Positions 12,084 to 44,053 of a DNA stretch of 64,000 bases are shown here, piece by piece. Where the stretch lies: contig NZ_CP053836.1 of NCBI RefSeq assembly GCF_013201825.1, forward strand, positions 558,001 to 622,000. The letters run 5' to 3'. The notes beneath the pieces were generated by a model. The model made no database searches. It was not told the origin of the DNA and saw only the letters and a list, made by a program, of their open reading frames with translations. The stretch is from Halarcobacter ebronensis. Its GTDB lineage: Bacteria; Campylobacterota; Campylobacteria; Campylobacterales; Arcobacteraceae. Numbering within the stretch: the stretch's first letter is position 1; every line of letters begins with the position of its first letter. The position numbers and the translations under genes are program-made.

Positions 12084-12827
12084 ATGAATAGTATAATAAT
12101 AATGCATAATGATACTATTAAAACAGCATTAGAAAAATTACAGAAGAATAAAAAAAGATTTTTAATTTGCCTTGATGATAAAAAATATTTATTAGGAGTA
12201 GTTACAGATGGGGATATAAGGCGTGCATTTTTAAATTCTTTTACTTTAGAAGATAAAATTGATAATGTTTATTGCCATGATTTTCAATATTTATATCTAA
12301 CATCTTCTTTTAGTGAGGTTTGTGAAAAATTTAAATCAGAGAAGATTGATTTTCTCCCAATAATTAATAAAGATAAAAAATTGGTTAATATAATTACAAA
12401 AAGGCAGTTTCATATAATGCTTTTAGAAAATATAGATTTTAATTTAAGTTATGATTTCAGTCAGTTTAATGAAAATACTTTAGAACATGAGATATATAAT
12501 CGACCTTGGGGTTTTTACAAAAGTACTATCTTAACACCTGATGCTCAAAGTAAAATAATAATAGTATTCCCTCACAGTGAGCTAAGTTTTCAGAAGCATG
12601 CAAAAAGAGATGAGCATTGGATAATTATTAAAGGGAAAGGGAAAGTAATATTAGGAGAAGAAGAAATACGTGTATCTCCTGGTAAATATGTATATATTCC
12701 AAAAGAGTGCAAGCATCAAATAATTAATGAAAGTAGCGAGAATCTAATTTTTTCGGAGGTTCAGCTTGGTGAATACTTTGGAGAAGATGATATTATAAGA
12801 TATAGAGATAAATATGGTAGAAAATAA
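12084..12827 (+). CDS. CBS-domain pair fused to mannose-6-phosphate isomerase-type cupin
   Basis: Two-part cytoplasmic protein. Residues 1 to about 125 form a CBS pair (GVVTDGDIRRAF, then FLPIINKDKKLVNIITK), a nucleotide-sensing module. Residues about 138-247 match the C-terminal cupin of the AlgA/ManC family: RPWGFYK, SFQKHAKRDEHW with the likely metal ligands Gln, His, Glu and His, YIPKECKH, and the ending LGEYFGEDDIIRY. The guanylyltransferase domain normally in front of this cupin is absent and replaced by the CBS pair. The cupin alone could isomerise fructose-6-phosphate and mannose-6-phosphate; that is inference. It sits directly before the NeuB-like gene, so it may feed a mannose-derived nonulosonate pathway. 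ATG at 12084 or 12102 could be the start. Confidence 0.75.
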   Translation: MNSIIIMHNDTIKTALEKLQKNKKRFLICLDDKKYLLGVVTDGDIRRAFLNSFTLEDKIDNVYCHDFQYLYLTSSFSEVCEKFKSEKIDFLPIINKDKKLVNIITKRQFHIMLLENIDFNLSYDFSQFNENTLEHEIYNRPWGFYKSTILTPDAQSKIIIVFPHSELSFQKHAKRDEHWIIIKGKGKVILGEEEIRVSPGKYVYIPKECKHQIINESSENLIFSEVQLGEYFGEDDIIRYRDKYGRK

Positions 12828-12845
12828 ATATGATAAGGTATAAAA

Positions 12846-13727
12846 ATGAGATTTGAATATGATTATAAAGAACCAAAAATTATTGCAGAGATAGGATGTA
12901 ATCATAAAGGTGAGATTGATATTGCAAAAGAATTAATAGATTTAGCAAAAGATTCTGGAGCAAAATATGTTAAATTTCAAAAAAGAAATAATAAAGAGTT
13001 ATTAACAAAAGAACAATATGATACTCCTCATCCTGTTCTTGAAAATTCATATGGAAAAACATACGGAGAACATAGAGAGTTTTTAGAGTTTACTAAAAAA
13101 CAACATTCCCAGTTAAAAGATTATTGTGATTCTATAGGTGTTATTTATTCAACATCTGTTTGGGATGTAACAAGTGCTAAAGAGATGTGCGAGTTTAATC
13201 CAGAGTTTCTAAAAGTTCCTTCTGCTTGTAATAATAACTTTGAAATGTTAAAAGTCCTAAGAGATGAATATAAAGGACAAGTTCAATTATCTATTGGAAT
13301 GACTACTAAAGAGGAAGTTGAAGGGATAGTAAAGTTTTTTGAAGAAACTAATCAAGCAAAAAGTAGATTATTGATTTATTCATGTACTTCTGGATATCCC
13401 GTACCTGCTAAAGATGTATCTCTTTTAGAAATCAACTGGTTATATGAAAATTATGGAGAAAGAGTAAATGAAATAGGTTTCTCAGGACATCATTTAGGTG
13501 TTGCCTTAGATGTAGCTGCATATACTTTAGGTGCTAGATGGATTGAAAGACATTTTACAAAAGATAAAACTTGGAAAGGTACTGACCATGGGGCTTCTTT
13601 AGAACCTGATGAATTAAAATTGTTAGTTAAAAGTTTAAATGAAGCATATGAATCTTTACATTATAAAAATGATGAGATTCTTCCAATTGAACAAGTACAA
13701 AGAGATAAGTTAAAAAATAGAAAGTAA
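12846..13727 (+). CDS. NeuB-like nonulosonate synthase lacking the SAF domain
   Basis: Condenses phosphoenolpyruvate with a hexose or hexosamine derivative to a nine-carbon acid. The NeuB TIM barrel is clear: IAEIGCNHKG, KYVKFQKR, a CTSGYPVP block, GFSGHHLG and IERHFTKDKTWKGTDH, then SLEPDEL. At 293 residues it stops where NeuB, LegI and PseI (about 335-350) carry a C-terminal SAF/antifreeze-like domain that closes over the partner subunit's active site. With the isomerase-type cupin upstream and the phosphatase-fused cytidylyltransferase downstream, KDN-9-phosphate synthase is the best guess; sialic or legionaminic acid synthesis is possible if precursor genes lie elsewhere. Confidence 0.8.
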   Translation: MRFEYDYKEPKIIAEIGCNHKGEIDIAKELIDLAKDSGAKYVKFQKRNNKELLTKEQYDTPHPVLENSYGKTYGEHREFLEFTKKQHSQLKDYCDSIGVIYSTSVWDVTSAKEMCEFNPEFLKVPSACNNNFEMLKVLRDEYKGQVQLSIGMTTKEEVEGIVKFFEETNQAKSRLLIYSCTSGYPVPAKDVSLLEINWLYENYGERVNEIGFSGHHLGVALDVAAYTLGARWIERHFTKDKTWKGTDHGASLEPDELKLLVKSLNEAYESLHYKNDEILPIEQVQRDKLKNRK

Positions 13728-13732
13728 ATAAA

Positions 13733-14572
13733 ATGAAATGTAAACTTTGTGGTAGTCAAAATCATAAAAAAAGAGAAGGTAGTGTAAGAGACAACAAAAA
13801 CTTAGAGATTTTTGAATGTTGTGATTGTGGATTAGTTTTTTTATCTGAAGATATAATTGATGATAATTTTTATGAGTTATCAAATATGCATGAGAGTTTT
13901 GATTTTCTAAAATGGAGAAAACAAACAAATGAGGATGATACTAGAAGGTTTAATTTCATAAAAAACAGTATTGTAAATAAAGAGATTCTTGATTTTGGTA
14001 GTGGAAATGGTGGATTTTTAAAACAGGCACAAACTTTAGCTAAAGATGTTTGTGGAGTTGAGTTAGAAAAAGCTGTTAAGCCTTATTATGAAAAAGAAAA
14101 TATTGAACTTTATAGTAGTCTTGATCAGTGTAATAAACAGTTTGATATTATCACCTCTTTTCATGTAATTGAACATATAAAAGAGCCTTTAGAAATATTG
14201 GAAAAACTAAAAGAAAAACTAAAAGAAAATGGAAAACTGATAATTGAAGTTCCAAATGCTAATGATGCCTTACTAACAATTTATGAAAGTGAAGCTTTTT
14301 CCAATTTTACTTATTGGAGTTGTCATTTATATTTATATACACAGCATACTCTTTCTATATTGGCAAAACAAGCTGGATTAAAAGTAGAATTTATAAAACA
14401 TATTCAAAGGTATCCTTTATCTAATCATCTTTATTGGCTAAGCAAAAATAAGCCAGGTGGGCATGAAAAATGGGATAATTTTTTAGATTCTGATCAACTA
14501 ACTAAAGCTTATGAAAGTCAACTAGCAAGTTTAGGTGCAACGGATACTTTAATGGCAAGTTTTACATTATAA
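13733..14572 (+). CDS. Class I SAM methyltransferase with zinc-ribbon N-terminus
   Basis: Likely sugar methyltransferase. The N-terminus has a four-cysteine zinc ribbon (Cys3/Cys6 and Cys29/Cys32), then the SAM-binding motif LDFGSGNGGFL near residue 85, an acidic strand end (GVELE) and the FHVIEHIKEP motif. This layout is common in Methyltransf_23-type enzymes of O-antigen and capsule loci, including NDP-sugar C- and O-methyltransferases. It lies 5 bases after the NeuB-like gene and within the nonulosonate cassette, so a methylated nonulosonate is a reasonable guess, but nothing in the sequence fixes the substrate. Confidence 0.78.
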   Translation: MKCKLCGSQNHKKREGSVRDNKNLEIFECCDCGLVFLSEDIIDDNFYELSNMHESFDFLKWRKQTNEDDTRRFNFIKNSIVNKEILDFGSGNGGFLKQAQTLAKDVCGVELEKAVKPYYEKENIELYSSLDQCNKQFDIITSFHVIEHIKEPLEILEKLKEKLKENGKLIIEVPNANDALLTIYESEAFSNFTYWSCHLYLYTQHTLSILAKQAGLKVEFIKHIQRYPLSNHLYWLSKNKPGGHEKWDNFLDSDQLTKAYESQLASLGATDTLMASFTL

Positions 14573-14583
14573 TTTAAAAGTTT

Positions 14584-15210
14584 ATGATAATGAGATACTT
14601 AAGAAATAAATTTTACTACTATAAATATTCTATATCAGAAATGTGTAATTTAGGTGAAGTGTATATAAATGGCTTAAAATATGCAATAAACATTGATGCT
14701 AAGAAAATAGGTGAAAAAGGTTTAAGTAAAACTATCATTACTTCAAAAAATGGTGGACAGATAAAAATTAATAAAAATAGTATTATTCGAGAAGGTTGTA
14801 AAATAGAGAATAATGGTAAAGGTGTAATTGAGATAGGATTTGATACAAATATTAATGAGAATACTATGATAAAAACCAATGGTAATGCTAATATAATTAT
14901 TAAAAATAATTGTGAAATTTCATGGAATTGCCAAATCTTAGGAAGTGATTTTCATCAAATTTTATATAATTCTAAAATAAAAAAAAGTTTTTGTGCAGAT
15001 GTATTTATAGGTGAACATGTATGGATTGGTACAAATAGTATAATTTTAAAAAATACTAAGATAGGAAATAACTGTGTTATACAAGCAAATTCATTAGTAA
15101 TTGGACAATTTCCAGATAATTGTTTAATTGGTGGTAATCCTGCAAAAATATTAAAATATAATATTAATTTTAGAAATCTTAGTTCAGAAGAGAAAAAAGG
15201 ATTTTTATGA
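14584..15210 (+). CDS. Hexapeptide-repeat (LbH) O-/N-acyltransferase
   Basis: Left-handed beta-helix acyltransferase, probably an acetyltransferase using acetyl-CoA. Repeats of the I-[GN]-x-N type run from about residue 45 to 190, with the CoA-site signature IGEHVWIGTNSIILKNTKIG and the terminal IGGNPAKILK. A histidine in SDFHQI near residue 121 is the likely general base. It overlaps the next gene by 4 bases and lies between the synthase and the cytidylyltransferase genes, so acetylation of the nonulosonate or its precursor is plausible. ATG at 14590 is an alternative start with no functional difference. Confidence 0.8.
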   Translation: MIMRYLRNKFYYYKYSISEMCNLGEVYINGLKYAINIDAKKIGEKGLSKTIITSKNGGQIKINKNSIIREGCKIENNGKGVIEIGFDTNINENTMIKTNGNANIIIKNNCEISWNCQILGSDFHQILYNSKIKKSFCADVFIGEHVWIGTNSIILKNTKIGNNCVIQANSLVIGQFPDNCLIGGNPAKILKYNINFRNLSSEEKKGFL

Positions 15211-16373
15211 ATATAGCATTTATTCCAGTTAGATGTGGGAGTAAATCCATCCCTTTTAAAAATATAAAAGAGTTTTGTGGCAAACCATTGGTTTATTGGA
15301 ATTTAAAAGCTATTGAAGAGTCAAAAAATATTGATTTAGTATATGTAGCTACTGATTGTGATGGGATTGCCAAAAAGGTAAAAGAGTTTAATTTTAAAAA
15401 GAGTGTTATATATAAAAGAGATGAAGTAAATGCACAGGATAGTTCATCTACAGAAGATGCGATGTTAGAATTCTTAAGAAAGCATAAACAAAATGATGAG
15501 GACTTTTTTATACTTGTTCAAGCAACTTCTCCTTTAACTCAGGCAAAGGATTTTGATGGGGCAATTAATCAACTAAAAGAGTCTGGTAAAGATTCCCTTT
15601 TAACAGTTGTAAATCAAAAAAGATTTTTTTGGAATAAAGCTGGTGAGTCTTTAAATTATGATTATAAGAAAAGACCTAGAAGACAGAACTTTGAAGGCTA
15701 TTTTTTAGAAAATGGAGCTTTTTATATAAATAGAGTAAAAAATATTTTAGAGAGTAAAAATAGGCTTTCAGGAGAGATCGATTTGTATGTAATGGAAGAG
15801 TTTACCTCTGTAGAAATAGATGAACCTCTTGATTGGCATATTGCTGAAAGCTTAATGAGAGAGCATATATTAAAAGAGAAAAATAGTAAAAAATGCAAAA
15901 AAATAAAACTCTTTTTAAGTGATGTGGATGGGACATTAACAGATGCTGGAATGTATTATAGCTCAAATAGAGGGGAATTTAAAAAGTTTAATACCCATGA
16001 TGGAAAAGGTTTTGAACTTTTAAGAAAAGCAGGCATAAAGACAGGATTAATCACAAGTGAAAAAACAAAAATAGTTGAAAATAGAGCAAAAAAATTGAAA
16101 GTTGATTATCTGTACCAAGGTGTGGAGCATGGAGGAAAGTTAAAAGTAGCAAAAAATATTTGTGAAAAAGAAGGTATTAGCCTTGATGAAGTTGCATATA
16201 TCGGGGATGATATAAATTGTAAAGAGCTTCTTTCAAAGGTAGGTGTAGCAGCTTGTCCAGCTAATTCATTAAGCGAAATTAAAAATATACTAAATATTAT
16301 ACAGTTATCAAAAAAAGGTGGAGAAGGTGTAGTGAGAGAGTTTAGCAAATATATTTTAGGAAATAATAATTAG
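15207..16373 (+). CDS. Acylneuraminate-type cytidylyltransferase fused to KdsC-like HAD phosphatase
   Basis: Bifunctional protein. Residues 1 to about 222 are a NeuA-type CMP-nonulosonate synthetase: FIPVRCGSKSIPFKN nucleotide loop, ATDCDGIAKKV, QATSPLT, and the late EIDEPLDW. Residues about 232-388 are a KdsC/YrbI HAD phosphatase: FLSDVDGTLTD with the nucleophile Asp pair, the LITSEKT block and YIGDDINC. Together they could remove phosphate from a nonulosonate-9-phosphate and activate the acid with CTP. Animal CMP-sialic acid synthetases also carry a KdsC-like C-terminal domain, there without clear phosphatase need. The fusion supports a 9-phosphate intermediate, as in KDN synthesis, over the phosphate-free bacterial NeuB route. 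Confidence 0.88.
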   Translation: MNIAFIPVRCGSKSIPFKNIKEFCGKPLVYWNLKAIEESKNIDLVYVATDCDGIAKKVKEFNFKKSVIYKRDEVNAQDSSSTEDAMLEFLRKHKQNDEDFFILVQATSPLTQAKDFDGAINQLKESGKDSLLTVVNQKRFFWNKAGESLNYDYKKRPRRQNFEGYFLENGAFYINRVKNILESKNRLSGEIDLYVMEEFTSVEIDEPLDWHIAESLMREHILKEKNSKKCKKIKLFLSDVDGTLTDAGMYYSSNRGEFKKFNTHDGKGFELLRKAGIKTGLITSEKTKIVENRAKKLKVDYLYQGVEHGGKLKVAKNICEKEGISLDEVAYIGDDINCKELLSKVGVAACPANSLSEIKNILNIIQLSKKGGEGVVREFSKYILGNNN

Positions 16374-17525: not shown

Positions 17526-19316
17526 ATGTGTGGGATTATAGGTTTTTCTTCACTAAGAAATAATTCACAAGAGATACTAAAAAATATTTTGGACGGGATT
17601 AGGCATCGTGGACCAGATAACAAAAGTTTTAAATTCTATAATAAAGTAGGTTTAGGGCATGTAAGGCTTTCTATAATAGATTTACATCAAGAATCTAATC
17701 AACCTATGTCAAGTTTTGATAAAAGATATACAATTATTTATAATGGAGAAATTTATAATTATAAAGAGATTAAACACGAATTAGAGTTGTTAGGTTATAA
17801 TTTTATAACAAATGGAGATACAGAAGTTATTTTAAATGGCTTTATTGAATTTAAAGAGAAAATTGTTGAAAAATTGAGTGGAATGTTTGCCTTTTCTATT
17901 TATGATAATATTGAAAATATATTTTTCCTTGCAAGAGATAGGTATGGAATAAAACCACTTTTCTTTTATAATGAGAATGAAGACTTTTGGTTTTGTTCAG
18001 AGGTTAAGCCACTCGAAAAATATATTTCCGATGAGAAAAGTTTGGAATCTTCTGTTTTGTTCCTTTTACTAGGATCTTTACCTCCTAAAATAACTATTAA
18101 TAAGTATATTCAAAAATTTCCTTCAGGGCATTATGCTTGGTACAAAAAAAATAATTTAATATTGGAGCAATATTATAATATTGAATATCAACCTAAGATA
18201 AAAGACAGTTATAAAAATATTATTGCAAATATACATGACCTTACAACAAATGCAGTAAAGAATAATTTAGTAAGTGATACTCCGGTAGGAACATTTTTGT
18301 CTGGAGGTTTAGATTCTTCTATAATTACTGCAATTGCATCAAGATACGTTACAAAGTTAAAAACTGTTTCAGTTTCATTTGAAGATAAAATTTTTTCTGA
18401 AGATTATTATCAAAAACTTGTAGTAGACAAATTCAAAACCGAACATTATGATTATCATATTACAAAAGAAATTTTTCAATTAGAATTTCTACAATATTTA
18501 GAAATTTTGGATCAGCCAAATATGGATGGTTTTAATACATATTTAGCATCAAAAATGGCTAGAAAAGCAGGATTAAAATCTATTTTAGCAGGGCAAGGTG
18601 CAGATGAAATTTTTTATAGTTATGATACATTTTTAAATGCAAAAAAACTTCGAGAAAATAAAAGCCCTCTTTATGGGATATTTTTATTACGAAAATTTAA
18701 AGAATTAATAAGATCAAAAAAAATACCTAAAGATATATCATTGTATTTAAAAAATATTGATTTAAGTTTATATTTACCGGGCAAGCAAATTTTTACCCCT
18801 TCACAAATTGCAAATATATTAAACCTTAAAATTGAAAAAGTATTATTAATAATATTAAATTGTTTTATGAAATTTGATAGCTCAAATATCCTTGCGTATG
18901 ATGATAAAGTATCTTATTATGAAGTTAAACTCTATTTAGAAAATCAACTTTTAGCCAAAGATGATATGAGTAGCATGGCAAACTCTTTAGAAATTAGAAT
19001 ACCTTTTTTAGATACGAATTTAGTTGATTATGTAACAAAAATAGAGCCTTCTATAAAATATGATAAAAAAGTATCAAAAGTATTGTTAGCAAAAGCATTT
19101 GAAAAAGAACTTCCTTCTGAAATTATATATAGAGATAAAAAAGGCTTTAGTATACCTTATGGGGAATGGCTTGAAACTATTGTTAATGATATAGGATTTA
19201 ATGAAAATATTTATATTAATTTATTTCTTAATAAAAAAATAGGATGGACAAAATTTATTACACTAGTAATGCTAAAAAAGTTTAATAGCAATATTGAGTT
19301 AAGTGGGGAAATATGA
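17526..19316 (+). CDS. asnB: Asparagine synthetase-type amidotransferase (AsnB)
   Basis: Glutamine-hydrolysing amidotransferase. It starts with MCGIIGFSS, so Cys2 becomes the N-terminal nucleophile of the class II glutaminase, and RHRGPD and YNGEIYN are conserved. The synthetase half carries the ATP pyrophosphatase loop SGGLDSS at residues 259-265. Length 596 is typical. Enzymes of this family in polysaccharide loci, such as WbpS of Pseudomonas and WbtH of Francisella, amidate uronic acid residues; here the TviB-like and uronate enzymes upstream provide suitable substrates. Free asparagine synthesis remains possible, but the position within the locus argues against it. It overlaps the next gene by 4 bases. 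Confidence 0.85.
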   Translation: MCGIIGFSSLRNNSQEILKNILDGIRHRGPDNKSFKFYNKVGLGHVRLSIIDLHQESNQPMSSFDKRYTIIYNGEIYNYKEIKHELELLGYNFITNGDTEVILNGFIEFKEKIVEKLSGMFAFSIYDNIENIFFLARDRYGIKPLFFYNENEDFWFCSEVKPLEKYISDEKSLESSVLFLLLGSLPPKITINKYIQKFPSGHYAWYKKNNLILEQYYNIEYQPKIKDSYKNIIANIHDLTTNAVKNNLVSDTPVGTFLSGGLDSSIITAIASRYVTKLKTVSVSFEDKIFSEDYYQKLVVDKFKTEHYDYHITKEIFQLEFLQYLEILDQPNMDGFNTYLASKMARKAGLKSILAGQGADEIFYSYDTFLNAKKLRENKSPLYGIFLLRKFKELIRSKKIPKDISLYLKNIDLSLYLPGKQIFTPSQIANILNLKIEKVLLIILNCFMKFDSSNILAYDDKVSYYEVKLYLENQLLAKDDMSSMANSLEIRIPFLDTNLVDYVTKIEPSIKYDKKVSKVLLAKAFEKELPSEIIYRDKKGFSIPYGEWLETIVNDIGFNENIYINLFLNKKIGWTKFITLVMLKKFNSNIELSGEI

Positions 19317-20833
19317 ATAGATATTTAGATATAAACTCTTTAATAGTGTTAAATTATTTTGAAAACAATGATAGGTTAACTTGGCATATAAGTCATAAAA
19401 AGTATGATGAATTTGCACAAGATATTTATAAGTGGTTATACGAAATAGATTTAGATGATAAAGAATTTGAGCTTTTTAATATTTCATCACCTATAATATA
19501 TCAATCTTTATCTACATATTTAACACATGTTTATGATTATATAATATTGGAGGAGAAAAGAGAGCATATATTTTACTCTCAAGATAGTAGTATTTATATA
19601 GATAAAATCTGGAAGAAACAAGTTATTGATAGTATATTTTCAATCGAATTAGAGAAAAAAAGATTTAAAAGAAGTAAAATCAAATCTTTGTATTCTTTTT
19701 TAATTAAATATATTCCAAAAAATTTTTTTGATGCAATAATTATTTCTAAAAATCAATTAGTTACGGAGTTTGTAAATAAAAGTAATTTAAAGACTATATA
19801 TCTGTCTCCTAGTTATTATTTTAAAATAAATACAAATAGAAGTTATTTTACAGATAAAATAGCTAAAAAGTTGGCAAATAATTTAATAGAAAAAATAGAA
19901 AATGAATATTTTAAACTATTTGAAGATCATAAAGCATCAATAGAATTTATAATAAATACTCTTTTATCAAGAGCACATAATGATTTAAAAAGTTATAATG
20001 GATTCTTAAAAAGTGCAAAAAATGTAATTACTGGAACAGGGAACAATTACTATAACAGGCTATTATCGACAATCGCTAAAAAAGAAAATTGTAAAGTTTC
20101 TCGTTTTTACCACGGTGGAGACAGGTGCTTTTTTAATGATCCTTGGTACTGGGAAAGTGAATTTTTTCAAACAGATTATTTTTATACATATGGTAAAAAG
20201 TGGGGAAATTTTGCAAAGAATAAAGTCTATGAATTAAATAAAAATATTGATGTGATATCTTTGGGATCTAAATACCATACTAAAATATATAATAAATATT
20301 TTGGTAAGAAAATAGGGAATAGAAAAAGGATACTATATATTCCAAACTCTTTTGTTGGGGAATTAAGACAGTTTCCTTATGCTAAAATTATTGACCCCTT
20401 ATTATTTGATTGGCAAAAATATTTAATTGATATGTTGCAAAAAAATGGTTTTGATGTAATATATAAAAAACATCCAAAAGGCTTTTTTCAAGAGGAAAAT
20501 ATTTTAGGGAAAATAGCAAAGCATGAATCTACTAATCTTATGATAGAAGCTTTAAGTGAAGCAGATATTGTTATTTGTGATATGGCTGGGAGTGCATTTG
20601 TTGAGTCATTATGTGCAGGGAAAGATATAATTCTTATAGATACACTACAACGTCCATTTGATATAAAGAATAAAAGAAATCTACAAAAAGCAGTAAAAAT
20701 AGTAGAAGGATATTGGGAAGATAATATATTAAAAGTAGATGAGAAAATATTAATAGAGACAATAAATTTTTTTAATATTGAAGATAATGACAAAGATGAT
20801 ATTATAAAAGAATACTACATTAATAAGGATTAA
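19313..20833 (+). CDS. Probable GT-B glycosyl- or phosphotransferase of the polysaccharide locus
   Basis: No confident family. The 506-residue protein has no membrane segments. The C-terminal half looks like the donor domain of GT-B enzymes such as polysialyltransferases, KpsC/S and CDP-glycerol phosphotransferases: FYHGGDRCFF near residue 264, a RILYIPNS strand, the KKHPKG motif near residue 385 (an HP motif), then VICDMAGSAFVES near residue 422. The HP motif is shared with several bacterial sialyl- and KDO transferases, so a nonulosonate transferase is a fair guess, not a demonstrated function. The N-terminal 230 residues are lysine- and tyrosine-rich and unlike anything I recognise. Confidence 0.5.
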   Translation: MNRYLDINSLIVLNYFENNDRLTWHISHKKYDEFAQDIYKWLYEIDLDDKEFELFNISSPIIYQSLSTYLTHVYDYIILEEKREHIFYSQDSSIYIDKIWKKQVIDSIFSIELEKKRFKRSKIKSLYSFLIKYIPKNFFDAIIISKNQLVTEFVNKSNLKTIYLSPSYYFKINTNRSYFTDKIAKKLANNLIEKIENEYFKLFEDHKASIEFIINTLLSRAHNDLKSYNGFLKSAKNVITGTGNNYYNRLLSTIAKKENCKVSRFYHGGDRCFFNDPWYWESEFFQTDYFYTYGKKWGNFAKNKVYELNKNIDVISLGSKYHTKIYNKYFGKKIGNRKRILYIPNSFVGELRQFPYAKIIDPLLFDWQKYLIDMLQKNGFDVIYKKHPKGFFQEENILGKIAKHESTNLMIEALSEADIVICDMAGSAFVESLCAGKDIILIDTLQRPFDIKNKRNLQKAVKIVEGYWEDNILKVDEKILIETINFFNIEDNDKDDIIKEYYINKD

Positions 20834-22708: not shown

Positions 22709-23581
22709 ATGACCATATTATTGAGTGGTTCAACAGGATTTTTAGGAAGCTATCTTCTTAAATTATTTATAAGAGATGGTTATAAGGTAATTGCTTTAAA
22801 AAGAAGTACTTCAAATATTTCTAGAATTGACAAATTTTTGAACAGTATAGTAATTTATGATATTGATAAAATAGAATTATCACAAATATTTAAAAATCAC
22901 AAAATTAATATAGTTGTTAATACAGTTATAAATTATGGTAGAAAAGATAATAAATTAACATCTGTTTTAGATACAAATTTAATGTTTAATTTGAATCTTT
23001 TGGAAGTATCGATTGCATCAAATATAAAAGCATTTGTAAATGCAGATACACTACTTGATAGGAGAATAAATGCATATGCTCTTTCAAAAGCCCAATTTGT
23101 AGATTGGATGAAATTTCTATCAAATAAAAATACAAAAATGATAAATATAAAAATAGAACATATGTATGGACTTGAAGATGATGAAAATAAATTTATTTAT
23201 TGGTTGGTTAATAAATTAGAGCAAAATGTAGAAAAAATTGATTTAACATCAGGAGTTCAAAAAAGAGATTTTATTTATATTGATGATATTGTTAATGCAT
23301 ATAAAATTATTATTGGAAATATCGATAAATTCTCAAATTATGAGGAGTTTGAACTTGGAAGTGGACATAGTATTGAAGTTAAAAAATTTGTTAAAAAGAT
23401 TTATGAAGAAATTTATAATAAACAAGTTTTAAATACTAAGTTAAATTTTGGAGTAATTCCTTATAGAGATAATGAAAATATGAATATAGAAGTAAATCTT
23501 GATAAAATTTTAAATTTAGGATGGAAACCAAAAGTTTTTTTTGAAGAGGGAATAAAAAGAATAATTGAAGGGAAAAGTTGA
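22709..23581 (+). CDS. CDP-abequose synthase-like reductase (RfbJ type)
   Basis: NAD(P)H-dependent SDR, predicted to reduce the 4-keto group of a CDP-3,6-dideoxy-4-keto sugar. It has GSTGFLGSYLL at the N-terminus, the catalytic YALSKAQ, IEHMYG, ENKFIYWL and KRDFIYIDDIVNAY. The order and wording of the last blocks resemble Salmonella RfbJ (CDP-abequose synthase) more than RfbS or TyvE. At 290 residues it is the right size. Placement between rfbG and rfbH supports the role. The exact product, abequose or another isomer, cannot be read from sequence. Confidence 0.75.
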   Translation: MTILLSGSTGFLGSYLLKLFIRDGYKVIALKRSTSNISRIDKFLNSIVIYDIDKIELSQIFKNHKINIVVNTVINYGRKDNKLTSVLDTNLMFNLNLLEVSIASNIKAFVNADTLLDRRINAYALSKAQFVDWMKFLSNKNTKMINIKIEHMYGLEDDENKFIYWLVNKLEQNVEKIDLTSGVQKRDFIYIDDIVNAYKIIIGNIDKFSNYEEFELGSGHSIEVKKFVKKIYEEIYNKQVLNTKLNFGVIPYRDNENMNIEVNLDKILNLGWKPKVFFEEGIKRIIEGKS

Positions 23582-24912
23582 TGACAAAGCAAGAGCAATT
23601 GAAGCAAGAAATTTTACAAAAAACAAAAGAATATTATGAGTTAGTTCATAAACCACTGCAAGATAAAAAGTTTATTGAAGGTGAATCTAGAGTTAACTAT
23701 GCGGGCAGAGTTTTTGACGAAAAGGAAATGCAATATTTAATAGATAGTTCATTAGATTTTTGGCTTACATATGGAGATTATTCTAAAAAATTTGAAAAAG
23801 ATCTTGCGAAGTTTTTAAATGTACGATGGGCATTTTTAGTGAACTCTGGAAGTAGTGCAAACTTACTTGCCTTTTATGCTTTGACTTCACCACTTTTAAA
23901 AGAGCGACAAGTTAAAAGAGGTGATGAGGTTATTACTGTAGCTGCTGGATTTCCTACTACTGTAGCTCCTATCGTGCAGTATGGAGCAGTTCCAGTGTTT
24001 GTTGATATGGAATTAACTTGTGCAAATATAGATGTAAATGAACTTGAAAAAGCGTTAAGTCCTAAAACAAAAGTTGTTATGATAGCTCATACTCTAGGAA
24101 ATCCTTTTAATATTAAGGTTGTAAAAGAGTTCTGCGATAAACACAACTTATGGTTGATTGAAGATAATTGTGATGCTCTTGGTTCAACATATGATGGAAA
24201 ATTAACAGGAACATGGGGAGATATTGGTACAAGCTCTTTTTATCCTCCTCATCACATGACAATGGGTGAAGGGGGTGCAACATATACAGATAATCCACTT
24301 CTTAAAAAAATTATGCTTTCATTAAGAGACTGGGGGAGAGATTGTTGGTGTGAAAGTGGAATTGATAATACTTGTGGAAAAAGATTTAAACAAGAATTTG
24401 GCAAATTACCCAAAGGATATGATCATAAATATGTTTATTCCCATTTTGGATTTAATTTAAAAGTCTCTGATATGCAAGCTGCTGTTGGTGTTGCACAACT
24501 AGAAAAATTCCCAACTTTTGTGGAAAAAAGAAAAGAGAATCAAAAGAAATTATATAGTGAGCTCAAAGACCTTAAAGAACTTCAACTTGTAGAAATTCAG
24601 CCAAATTCAGATCCTAGCTGGTTTGGATTTATGATGACACTTACAGATGAAGCAAAATTTACAAGAAATGAGATAGTTGAATACCTAGAAAATAATAACA
24701 TCCAAACAAGAAATCTATTTGCAGGGAATATGACAAAACATCCTATGTTTGATAGTATGGTTTTAAATACTGATTATAGAGTAGTTGGGAATTTAAAAGT
24801 AACAGATAAAATTATGAATGATAGTTTTTGGATAGGTTTGTATCCTGGTATGGGTGATGATGCAATTAACTATATGATTAAAAAAATTAGAGAATTTGTG
24901 GAAAGTAAATAA
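23581..24912 (+). CDS. rfbH: CDP-4-keto-6-deoxyglucose 3-dehydrase (E1)
   Basis: PMP- and iron-sulfur-dependent enzyme that removes the C3 hydroxyl to give 3,6-dideoxyhexoses. It has the aminotransferase fold, but the usual lysine is replaced by His224-His225 in YPPHHMTMG, the hallmark of E1, and the [2Fe-2S] cysteines Cys255, Cys257 and Cys265 are visible. I chose ATG 23581, which overlaps the previous stop as TGATG and follows GAAGGG. The reductase partner E3 (RfbI/AscD) is not encoded next to it, so electrons may come from another ferredoxin reductase. Confidence 0.92.
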   Translation: MTKQEQLKQEILQKTKEYYELVHKPLQDKKFIEGESRVNYAGRVFDEKEMQYLIDSSLDFWLTYGDYSKKFEKDLAKFLNVRWAFLVNSGSSANLLAFYALTSPLLKERQVKRGDEVITVAAGFPTTVAPIVQYGAVPVFVDMELTCANIDVNELEKALSPKTKVVMIAHTLGNPFNIKVVKEFCDKHNLWLIEDNCDALGSTYDGKLTGTWGDIGTSSFYPPHHMTMGEGGATYTDNPLLKKIMLSLRDWGRDCWCESGIDNTCGKRFKQEFGKLPKGYDHKYVYSHFGFNLKVSDMQAAVGVAQLEKFPTFVEKRKENQKKLYSELKDLKELQLVEIQPNSDPSWFGFMMTLTDEAKFTRNEIVEYLENNNIQTRNLFAGNMTKHPMFDSMVLNTDYRVVGNLKVTDKIMNDSFWIGLYPGMGDDAINYMIKKIREFVESK

Positions 24913-41360: not shown

Positions 41361-42323
41361 TTGTTTTATTTACTTCTTTTTATTTTCTCTTTTATTTTAA
41401 CTTATCTAATAAAAAACTATGCTATCAAAAAATCTTTAGTTGCATCGGTAAACGAAAGAAGTTCACATACCACTCCAACTCCACATGGGGGAGGAATTGC
41501 AATTGCAATTACTTGGTTTATAGGACTTGTTTATTTAAAGTTTACATCTCAGATTGATGAAACACTTTTTAATACACTTTTAGTAGGATTTATTATCTCT
41601 TTTGTTAGTTTTTTTGATGATATTTATGAATTAAGTGCCAAATTTAGACTTCTTATTCAGGCTTCTGTTGCAGCTTTGGCTTTATTCTTATTAGGTGGAT
41701 TTAATAGTTTAAATTTAGGCTTTTTTACAATCGAAAATCATTTTGTTACAAATATTTTTGCATTTTTTATGATTATTTGGTTTATAAATCTATATAACTT
41801 TTTAGATGGCATTAATGGTTATTCCGGAAGTGAAGCAGTATTTTTAGGTCTTGCTGGTTTACTAATTTTTGGTGGTTATCATTTTGGTATATTAGTCGTT
41901 GCAGTTCTAGGTTTTTTATTTTGGAATTATAATAAAGCTAAAATTTTTATGGGAGATGTGGGAAGTACACTTTTAGGTTTTAATATTGCAATATTTACAA
42001 TCTATTACACAAATCAAGATTCTTTAAATTTTTGGATTTGGATCACTCTTTTTTCTCTTTTTTGGTTTGATGCAACTTATACTCTTATAAGAAGAAAATT
42101 AAACAAAGAAAAACTTTCCCAAGCACATAAAAAACATGCTTATCAAAGACTTACTCAAGCAAACTGGAGTCATTTTAAAGTTACAAATTATTCAATTATT
42201 ATAAACCTTATTATTTTGGGATTTGTTTACTTTATTCCTAATATTTACGTAGCTTTTTTATTATCTTTAATATTATTATTTAGTATAATGCAATTCATAA
42301 ATAGTAAAAAGGCTTTTTCATAA
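41361..42323 (+). CDS. Polyprenyl-phosphate HexNAc-1-phosphate transferase, WbpL/WecA-like
   Basis: Membrane enzyme that transfers the first sugar-1-phosphate onto undecaprenyl phosphate. About ten to eleven hydrophobic segments; SSHTTPTPHGGGIAI near residue 33, FFDDIYELSAKFR near residue 88, NFLDGINGYSG near residue 146 and FMGDVGSTLLG near residue 195 are the conserved acidic motifs of the MraY/WecA family. Length 320 is short but normal for WbpL. Start is TTG at 41361, directly after the previous TAG. Confidence 0.87.
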   Translation: MFYLLLFIFSFILTYLIKNYAIKKSLVASVNERSSHTTPTPHGGGIAIAITWFIGLVYLKFTSQIDETLFNTLLVGFIISFVSFFDDIYELSAKFRLLIQASVAALALFLLGGFNSLNLGFFTIENHFVTNIFAFFMIIWFINLYNFLDGINGYSGSEAVFLGLAGLLIFGGYHFGILVVAVLGFLFWNYNKAKIFMGDVGSTLLGFNIAIFTIYYTNQDSLNFWIWITLFSLFWFDATYTLIRRKLNKEKLSQAHKKHAYQRLTQANWSHFKVTNYSIIINLIILGFVYFIPNIYVAFLLSLILLFSIMQFINSKKAFS

Positions 42324-44053
42324 TGTATTTTATTGATAAACGTATTTTAAATTTTGTAGTTATTATTTCACTTTCTATTATAACTTTTTGGTGGACATTT
42401 TTTATTTTTCATCTTCACTTCTCTTTAGATGTTGTATTTGGTGTAGTCTTAATACGAGCTCTTTGCTCTTTTCTTATTTTTAGAGATTACTCTCTGTCTT
42501 GGAGTAAAGCTAGTCAAAAAACTTTTTTAATGAAAAGTACTGTTTATATAATAGCTTTTTGTATCTATATGCCTTTTTATTATGGAGAATATAGATTTGC
42601 TTTTATGGCTTCGGAACTTGCTTTTTATCTTTTTGGTATAAACTTTTCAATGTATTCATATTACTATTTAGTAAATAGAAGTAGAGTTGAAAAAACAAAA
42701 AAGGCAGTTATTTATGGAGCTGGTAAGGCTGGTATTAAACTTGAAGAAGAGTTTAAAAACAGTAAATATAAAGTTAAATACTTTGTAGATGATGATAGGA
42801 TTTTACAAAAAAGAACTATTGACTCTATTCCTATAATTTCGCCAAAAGTATTAAAAGAGAAGCTTGCTAATCAAAGATATGATATGCTCGTAATAGCTAT
42901 GCCTAGTACCTCAAAAGATAGAATTAAAGAAATCTATGAGAAATTAAGTCCATACTTTAAAGAGATTAGAATTCTTCCTTCTCTTTCAGATATCTTATCA
43001 AATAAAGCTTTTAGTGAACAGCTTAAAAACATCTCAGTTGAAGATTTGCTGGCAAGGCATCCAAAAGATTTAGATAAGAAAAAAATAGAAACTTTTATAA
43101 AAGATAAGGTAGTTCTTATAACTGGAGCTGGTGGAAGTATAGGTAGTGAGATAAGCAGACAGTGCAAAAAATATGGAGCTAAACAGCTTATTTTAGTTGA
43201 CCATAGTGAATTTAATCTTTACTCGATTACAGATGAGCTCAAAAGTGATATTGTAGTTCCAGTTATGCAAACAGTTAGAAATTTTGAACTTCTAGAGACT
43301 ACTTTTGAAAAATATAAACCTCAGATAGTTATTCATGCAGCTGCATATAAACATGTTCCTTTGGTTGAAAGCAATATTTTAGAAGGAATTTCAAACAATA
43401 TTATTGGAACTAAAAATGCTATTGATTTAGCCATTAAATATTCGATTCAAAAGTTTGTTCTAATCTCAACAGACAAAGCAGTTCGTCCAACAAATGTGAT
43501 GGGTACTACAAAAAGAGTTTGTGAGCTTTATGCTCAAAATGTGAACAACAAAAATACAGAAATAGTCTCAGTTCGATTTGGAAATGTTTTAGGAAGTAGC
43601 GGAAGTGTAATCCCTAAGTTTAAAACACAAATTGAAAAAGGTGGACCAATTACTGTAACTCATCCTGATATTACAAGATACTTTATGCTTATCCCAGAAG
43701 CTTGTGAGTTAGTACTTCAAGCAGCCTCTATTGGAAAGGGTGGTGAGCTTTTTATTTTGGATATGGGAGAGCCTGTAAAAATTGTAGATTTAGCTAAAAA
43801 AATGATAGAGTTAAGTGGTAAAGAGGGGATAAATATTGAATTTTGTGGTTTAAGACCAGGAGAAAAACTCTATGAAGAACTTCTTATTAATGATAGTGAT
43901 AAAAAAACTGACTATGAATCAATAATGGTTGCAAGCTCTACAGCATATGACATTACTAAACTAAATGCAGATATTCAAGAACTTCTTATATGTAAAGATA
44001 AAATCTCTAAATTAAAAGAGATAGTTCCTGAATTTAATCATCAAACAAATTAA
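42323..44053 (+). CDS. UDP-HexNAc 4,6-dehydratase, WbpM/PglF type
   Basis: Membrane-anchored dehydratase making UDP-4-keto-6-deoxy-GlcNAc. Four hydrophobic segments lie in residues 1-115, a CoA-binding-like Rossmann domain at about 125-240 (VIYGAGKAGIKL), then the catalytic SDR domain from 265: ITGAGGSIGSEI, HAAAYKHVPLVE, the Thr383-Asp384-Lys385 group in STDKAVRPTNVMG and GLRPGEKLYEELL. At 576 residues it has the usual WbpM/PglF size. It is the last gene of the locus and is followed by a hairpin terminator. It may also serve other glycans of the cell. Confidence 0.88.
   Translation: MYFIDKRILNFVVIISLSIITFWWTFFIFHLHFSLDVVFGVVLIRALCSFLIFRDYSLSWSKASQKTFLMKSTVYIIAFCIYMPFYYGEYRFAFMASELAFYLFGINFSMYSYYYLVNRSRVEKTKKAVIYGAGKAGIKLEEEFKNSKYKVKYFVDDDRILQKRTIDSIPIISPKVLKEKLANQRYDMLVIAMPSTSKDRIKEIYEKLSPYFKEIRILPSLSDILSNKAFSEQLKNISVEDLLARHPKDLDKKKIETFIKDKVVLITGAGGSIGSEISRQCKKYGAKQLILVDHSEFNLYSITDELKSDIVVPVMQTVRNFELLETTFEKYKPQIVIHAAAYKHVPLVESNILEGISNNIIGTKNAIDLAIKYSIQKFVLISTDKAVRPTNVMGTTKRVCELYAQNVNNKNTEIVSVRFGNVLGSSGSVIPKFKTQIEKGGPITVTHPDITRYFMLIPEACELVLQAASIGKGGELFILDMGEPVKIVDLAKKMIELSGKEGINIEFCGLRPGEKLYEELLINDSDKKTDYESIMVASSTAYDITKLNADIQELLICKDKISKLKEIVPEFNHQTN

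Follow-up and report, generated by a model that had tools for sequence, protein, structure and literature searches.

2-Keto-3-deoxynononic acid (KDN), a relative of sialic acid, is known from few bacterial glycans, and the usual nonulosonates of flagella are pseudaminic acid (Pse) or legionaminic acid (Leg). KDN-containing bacterial polysaccharides include the KL1/KL2 capsule of Serratia marcescens and a 5-O-methyl-Kdn polysaccharide of Sinorhizobium fredii (PMC9000132). The KDN-9-phosphate (KDN-9-P) phosphatase of Bacteroides thetaiotaomicron has been used as a characterized enzyme, and in the alga Prymnesium parvum the Kdn-9-P synthetase is specific for mannose-6-phosphate (Man-6-P), while the CMP-Kdn synthetase does not use N-acetylneuraminic acid (Neu5Ac) (PMC6200933). 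Here we describe a gene cassette at positions 12084 to 16373 of a 64,000-nucleotide stretch (the window) of the Halarcobacter ebronensis genome (coded G000), with domains assigned by Pfam and NCBIfam searches of the locus proteins. Judged from sequence, the core of this cassette very probably encodes a self-contained pathway to CMP-KDN that runs through phosphorylated intermediates.

Five plus-strand genes, contiguous or almost so, are present where a preliminary description of this DNA placed them. That description proposed that all five could form one KDN route. The closest solved or curated relative of each step fits KDN, and this part of the proposal has good sequence support; the five-gene unit gives way to a conserved core of three genes, encoding a cupin with a CBS pair (CBS-cupin), a NeuB-family synthase, and a CMP-synthetase/phosphatase fusion. 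The interpretation is also widened in that the cassette occurs twice in the genome, extends beyond Campylobacterota, and points to flagella as well as polysaccharide. In the proposed pathway, the CBS-cupin would convert fructose-6-phosphate (Fru-6-P) to Man-6-P, the synthase would form KDN-9-P from Man-6-P and phosphoenolpyruvate (PEP), the C-terminal domain of the fusion would take the 9-phosphate off, and its N-terminal domain would make CMP-KDN from KDN and CTP. The methyltransferase, and perhaps the acyltransferase too, would modify the KDN.

The core was traced in a scan of one genome per species (84,980 species), in which exact short peptides were sought, so that its counts are lower bounds. 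Relatives of the synthase were found at at least 24 loci, with 46 to 88% identity. Across Campylobacterota, Gracilibacteria, Bacillota, and Actinomycetota, the genes for CBS-cupin, synthase, and fusion are usually adjacent, in varying order; their being kept together across phyla argues that the cassette is not a product of chance.

Enzymes of the conserved core

The synthase gene (12846 to 13727; PF03102, 220 bits) encodes a predicted KDN-9-P synthase for which Pfam gave no SAF domain match. Its AlphaFold2 model (mean pLDDT, 91.4) is a NeuB TIM barrel whose chain ends without that domain. It scores well under the NCBIfam cutoffs for NeuB_NnaB (196 bits versus 399.65) and PseI (135 bits versus 340). 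The active-site residues of Neisseria NeuB that were checked are kept at all but two positions: that of Glu134 is Cys, Ser, Thr, or Met in cassette synthases, and that of Asn184 is Ser here and Ser or Thr in other synthases too. Arg314 of NeuB, which recognizes the N-acetyl group, is mutated in Protein Data Bank (PDB) entries 4ipi and 4ipj and falls in the SAF domain that the cassette synthase is without. Met42, which we take to be the single-site marker of the human synthase, corresponds to L33 here; this position varies among L, T, V, and I in 16 homologues and is given no weight here. The predicted substrates are Man-6-P and PEP.

The fusion gene (15207 to 16373) joins an N-terminal CMP-sialate synthetase domain (15207 to 15889; PF02348, CTP_transf_3) to a C-terminal KdsC-like HAD domain (15890 to 16373), the latter a predicted KDN-9-P phosphatase from its similarity to KDN9PP (PDB 3e81). 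Over 157 columns, this domain is 51% identical to 3e81, which we take to be the B. thetaiotaomicron KDN-9-P phosphatase, consistent with family NF058599. Residues E285 and K296 of the fusion correspond to E56 and K67 of 3e81; they are invariant in the 16 cassette homologues and retained in three alphaproteobacterial fusions too, whereas the two KdsC-type chains that were aligned (3mn1 and 3n07) have Arg and Ser/Ala at these positions. From the PDB sequences, 4hgq is an E56A and 4hgr an E56A/K67A form of 3e81, and the meaning given to Glu56 and Lys67 draws on these mutated entries. For the CMP domain, the closest solved chain is PpNeuA (9t4z; 37% identity), presumably the CMP-KDN synthetase of P. 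parvum. The two share an NYD motif that is invariant in the 16 homologues, and the domain is predicted to activate KDN.

The CBS-cupin (12084 to 12827) is a type II phosphomannose-isomerase-like cupin (PF01050, 90 bits) and a predicted Fru-6-P/Man-6-P isomerase; its CBS pair (PF00571) was overlooked in the preliminary description. In the AlphaFold2 model (mean pLDDT, 88.5), the cupin domain is nearest to the phosphomannose isomerases 7zvm/7zvy (Z score of 17.4; 1.3 Å across 101 residues), and Q170, H172, E177, and H211 are invariant in the 16 homologues. Family match and fold together mark this protein as the candidate source of Man-6-P. The genome contains two PF01050 cupins, both in cassettes, and no type I phosphomannose isomerase (PMI) was found in the complete genome; the two cassette copies are its sole PMI candidates. 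At three other loci (L010, L011, and L074), a bona fide GDP-mannose pyrophosphorylase/PMI is encoded a few kilobases off and the CBS-cupin is still kept beside the synthase, which argues that the CBS-cupin serves the cassette sugar. The presence of the full enzyme at these three loci likewise argues against a cupin devoted to GDP-mannose only.

The CBS pair raises the possibility of regulation. The CBS pairs of KdsD-type arabinose-5-phosphate isomerases are thought to bind or sense the CMP-activated form of 3-deoxy-D-manno-octulosonic acid (KDO). With the kpsF profile, the best match in the genome is the true KdsD, followed by the two cassette CBS-cupins in their CBS region only; other CBS proteins of the genome score almost as high. 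Aligned with the genome's KdsD, the CBS pair scores 79 (shuffled maximum, 49), and its TDGDIRR motif resembles SDGDLRR in KdsD. No CMP-Kdo-bound CBS structure was among the fold matches listed for the isomerase model. We tentatively hypothesize, by analogy, that CMP-KDN might exert feedback on the isomerase through this pair.

Search for other nonulosonate routes in the genome

The genome is a single 3.17-Mb contig (99.99% complete) with two NeuB genes, both of the SAF-less cassette type. Searches of this complete genome found no Epimerase_2 (PF02350, covering UDP-GlcNAc 2-epimerase and LegG-type enzymes; positive in 11 of 14 control genomes), no NanE, and no PseB equivalog. There is therefore no recognized precursor route for acids based on N-acetylmannosamine (ManNAc) or on diacetamido sugars, and the Man-6-P route appears dedicated. 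KDO is served separately by a KdsB-like cytidylyltransferase and KdsD. Three candidate routes were thus rejected: a KDO route, given its own KdsB and KdsD; a Neu5Ac route, for which there is no recognized source of ManNAc or ManNAc-6-phosphate; and, from the whole-genome searches, a Leg/Pse pathway with its genes elsewhere.

The last of these was also the weak point named by the preliminary description, which held that a Leg/Pse set elsewhere in need of a synthase and cytidylyltransferase would speak against KDN; with no Epimerase_2 or PseB equivalog and both NeuB genes of cassette type, no such set came to light. Its statement that the locus has no LegB, LegC, PseB, PseC, or NeuC homologue was too strong. 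A PglF/WbpM-type UDP-sugar 4,6-dehydratase (42323 to 44053) lies in the same polysaccharide locus, as does an RfbH (23578 to 24912), but both are below the equivalog cutoffs: the dehydratase scores 179 bits against a PseB cutoff of 408, and RfbH falls under both the PseC and LegC cutoffs. The presence of such a dehydratase and an aminotransferase within the window is what would favor a cassette that supplies only the synthase and cytidylyltransferase for a Pse/Leg pathway encoded elsewhere. Those routes require neither a 9-phosphatase nor a mannose isomerase. Identity between this synthase and the SAF-type enzymes that other Campylobacterota carry does not exceed 38%, and the genome, with neither a PseB equivalog nor a LegG-type Epimerase_2, nearly refutes this explanation.

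Several observations weigh against the assignment of the core to KDN. The phosphatase domain narrowly misses the NF058599 cutoff (170.6 bits versus 180; 162.7 to 176.3 bits in other cassettes and 102.6 in a rhizobial fusion), and we therefore treat it as a variant rather than as that equivalog. The NYD motif does not occur in the alphaproteobacterial (rhizobial) fusions and is hence not universal. No CBS-cupin was seen in the alphaproteobacterial loci, nor in some other loci. The comparison of the synthase covered solved NeuB enzymes and genomic relatives rather than the synthases of Serratia, P. parvum, or B. thetaiotaomicron. In the fold search, CapF and other cupins trail the phosphomannose isomerases by 1 to 2 Z units, so that the PF01050 family match counts as much as the fold. 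Mouse CMAS, a Neu5Ac enzyme, is almost as close to the CMP domain (36% identity) as PpNeuA.

The cupin could in principle yield a sugar phosphate other than Man-6-P, in which case the product would be a KDN stereoisomer or a related 3-deoxy-ulosonate. Cupins are versatile, with CapF, DddK, and lyxose-isomerase cupins all matching the model, and the synthase clade is far from all solved NeuB enzymes (about 28 to 30% identity) and has no member known to have been assayed. We nevertheless regard this explanation as unlikely, given the match to PF01050 specifically, the phosphomannose isomerase as top fold match, and the KDN-9-P-type residues of the phosphatase. The closeness of mouse CMAS bears on a second explanation, an animal-like synthesis of Neu5Ac from ManNAc-6-phosphate with phosphatase and CMP-synthetase arranged as in CMAS; the human synthase, moreover, produces both acids (PMC9000132). 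With no NanE or Epimerase_2 in the genome, a mannose-type isomerase in the cassette, and a synthase without the Arg314-bearing SAF domain, it is very improbable. Synthesis of CMP-KDN from Man-6-P is the best explanation.

A second cassette and probable flagellin glycosylation

A second cassette lies beside recA and enolase genes (L027:7719-11370, equivalent to G000:C1 2945718-2949369). From it, a minus-strand run of genes for glycosyltransferases, methyltransferases, radical SAM proteins, and a split transketolase leads to the genome's single Maf transferase (2.918 to 2.920 Mb) and two flagellin genes (2.916 to 2.918 Mb). Cassette and Maf are about 25 to 30 kb apart, and the same-strand run of ~33 kb (L038/L039; G000:C1 2914000-2946000), with the cassette at one end, is likely a flagellin glycosylation island. 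At seven other Campylobacterota loci, no more than 10 kb separates the cassette from a Maf gene: L003 (Malaciobacter halophilus), L004 (Poseidonibacter lekithochrous), L006 (Sulfurimonas), L070, L071, L072, and L075. At all of these but L004, the cassette has flagellin genes beside it as well.

In three cassette-bearing genomes (those of H. ebronensis, G256, and G343), Maf and flagellin are present and every NeuB is, by Pfam count, of the KDN type; in a fourth (G126), NeuB is likewise of the KDN type only. In the first three, no nonulosonate other than KDN could therefore come from a known de novo route, and KDN is their likely flagellin sugar. The second copy probably feeds flagellin glycosylation via Maf. 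Maf enzymes are described as transferring nonulosonic acids to flagellin, and one Maf as promiscuous (PMC11339370). No report of KDN on flagellin was found in the open literature searched. We consider it plausible, at somewhat less than even odds, that one group of Campylobacterota both carries (methylated) KDN instead of Pse/Leg on flagellin via Maf and senses CMP-KDN through the CBS pair of the entry phosphomannose isomerase.

Putative modifying genes and the polysaccharide locus

The preliminary description counted a methyltransferase and an acyltransferase as cassette parts. The S-adenosylmethionine-dependent methyltransferase (13733 to 14572; Methyltransf_23), predicted to modify KDN, belongs only to part of the Campylobacterota cassettes, within one lineage: it is kept in several, mainly Maf-linked ones and is missing from most of those in polysaccharide loci. 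The hexapeptide acyltransferase (14584 to 15210; Pfam/NCBIfam match), outside the conserved core, was seen only in the window copy, with no counterpart inside the other cassettes compared. Genes for TylF-type O-methyltransferases occur beside or in place of Methyltransf_23 at L003:4385-5047, L004:10887-11549, L005:1865-2527, and L071:9355-10017, which suggests that KDN may be methylated differently in several flagellar cassettes.

The neighbors of the window cassette are Wzz-type, UDP-sugar dehydrogenase, glycosyltransferase, RfbFGH-type, and WecA-type genes, which make a surface polysaccharide the natural destination for the product of this copy. A 506-amino-acid protein without a Pfam match is encoded at 19313 to 20833, and a relative 52% identical to it is found near the cassette in L012 (15044-16576). 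It may be a transferase that uses CMP-KDN.

Distribution and origin of the cassette

Some relative of the synthase is present in 342 of 397 Campylobacterota genomes, and the listed identities are bimodal: among the matches listed, 10 of the 397 genomes have identities of 61 to 100%, and the rest have 38% or less. The KDN-type synthase is thus uncommon in Campylobacterota (~2.5% of genomes), in line with the preliminary description, which took a KDN-type sugar to be uncommon there. In alphaproteobacteria (Sinorhizobium, Ensifer, and a Pseudorhodobacter), the synthase usually accompanies a fused CMP-synthetase/phosphatase gene, and plasmids of these genera (L092, L093, L094, and L095) carry members of the synthase clade at 53 to 56% identity. 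At two of the alphaproteobacterial loci, genes annotated as alpha-2,3-sialyltransferase lie nearby, and a Pfam CST-I match was obtained at one of the two. A KDN-type synthase frame in G236 (L077:9913-10575), adjoining CBS-cupin and CMP-synthetase/phosphatase genes, has an internal TAG stop and is perhaps a decayed or phase-variable copy. A search of a phage collection yielded no member of the synthase clade.

Phylogenies place the parts of the window cassette differently. Its synthase clusters with Arcobacteraceae flagellar or recA-linked copies (support, 99/95), whereas its CBS-cupin falls outside the group of Arcobacteraceae flagellar/recA-linked cupins (100/99), next to cupins that for the most part come from polysaccharide loci. 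At the DNA level, the two copies in the genome share 65% identity in the cupin gene and 78 to 83% in the other three genes. From these conflicting placements and per-gene identities, the window cassette reads as a mosaic formed via recombination or partial duplication.

Comparison with known systems

The KDN pathway of B. thetaiotaomicron (UniProt Q8A710-Q8A712 as cited in PMC6200933; phosphatase 3e81/4hgo) shares with the predicted one the order Man-6-P, KDN-9-P, KDN, and CMP-KDN; the present cassette differs in joining the phosphatase and CMP-synthetase into one protein and in having a dedicated CBS-cupin isomerase. The route of P. parvum also passes through Man-6-P, and its PpNeuA is nearest to the CMP domain described here, but no KDN-9-P phosphatase homologue was found in the alga, and the C terminus of its CMP enzyme is a membrane segment rather than a phosphatase (PMC6200933). 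Vertebrate CMAS has the same domain order as the fusion, a CMP-synthetase followed by a KdsC-like domain, with CMP domains 36% identical; it mainly activates Neu5Ac, and the role of its C-terminal domain is described as unknown (PMC8636478). The cassette fusion offers a parallel to that unclear domain. What would be new relative to the known KDN pathway are the fusion, a dedicated isomerase whose CBS pair may be regulatory, the lack of a SAF domain in the synthase, and a probable use in flagella.

If the reading is correct, the compact and widely scattered CMP-KDN cassette predicts KDN in many more bacteria, and a SAF-less synthase together with a CMP-synthetase/phosphatase fusion would be a genomic marker for it. 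A member of the cassette synthase clade (53 to 54% identity) is encoded on plasmids of S. fredii, a link to the KDN polysaccharide at the species level, the structure-solved strain not being among the matches. With the Maf systems that glycosylate flagellin with Pse/Leg in Campylobacter and Aeromonas, the cassette shares its Maf/flagellin linkage in several Campylobacterota. Unlike those systems, H. ebronensis, G256, and G343 are without a Pse/Leg-type synthase, and we predict KDN as the sugar; this cassette group may coat flagella with KDN in place of Pse or Leg, and natural use by Maf of a nonulosonate other than these two would become testable.

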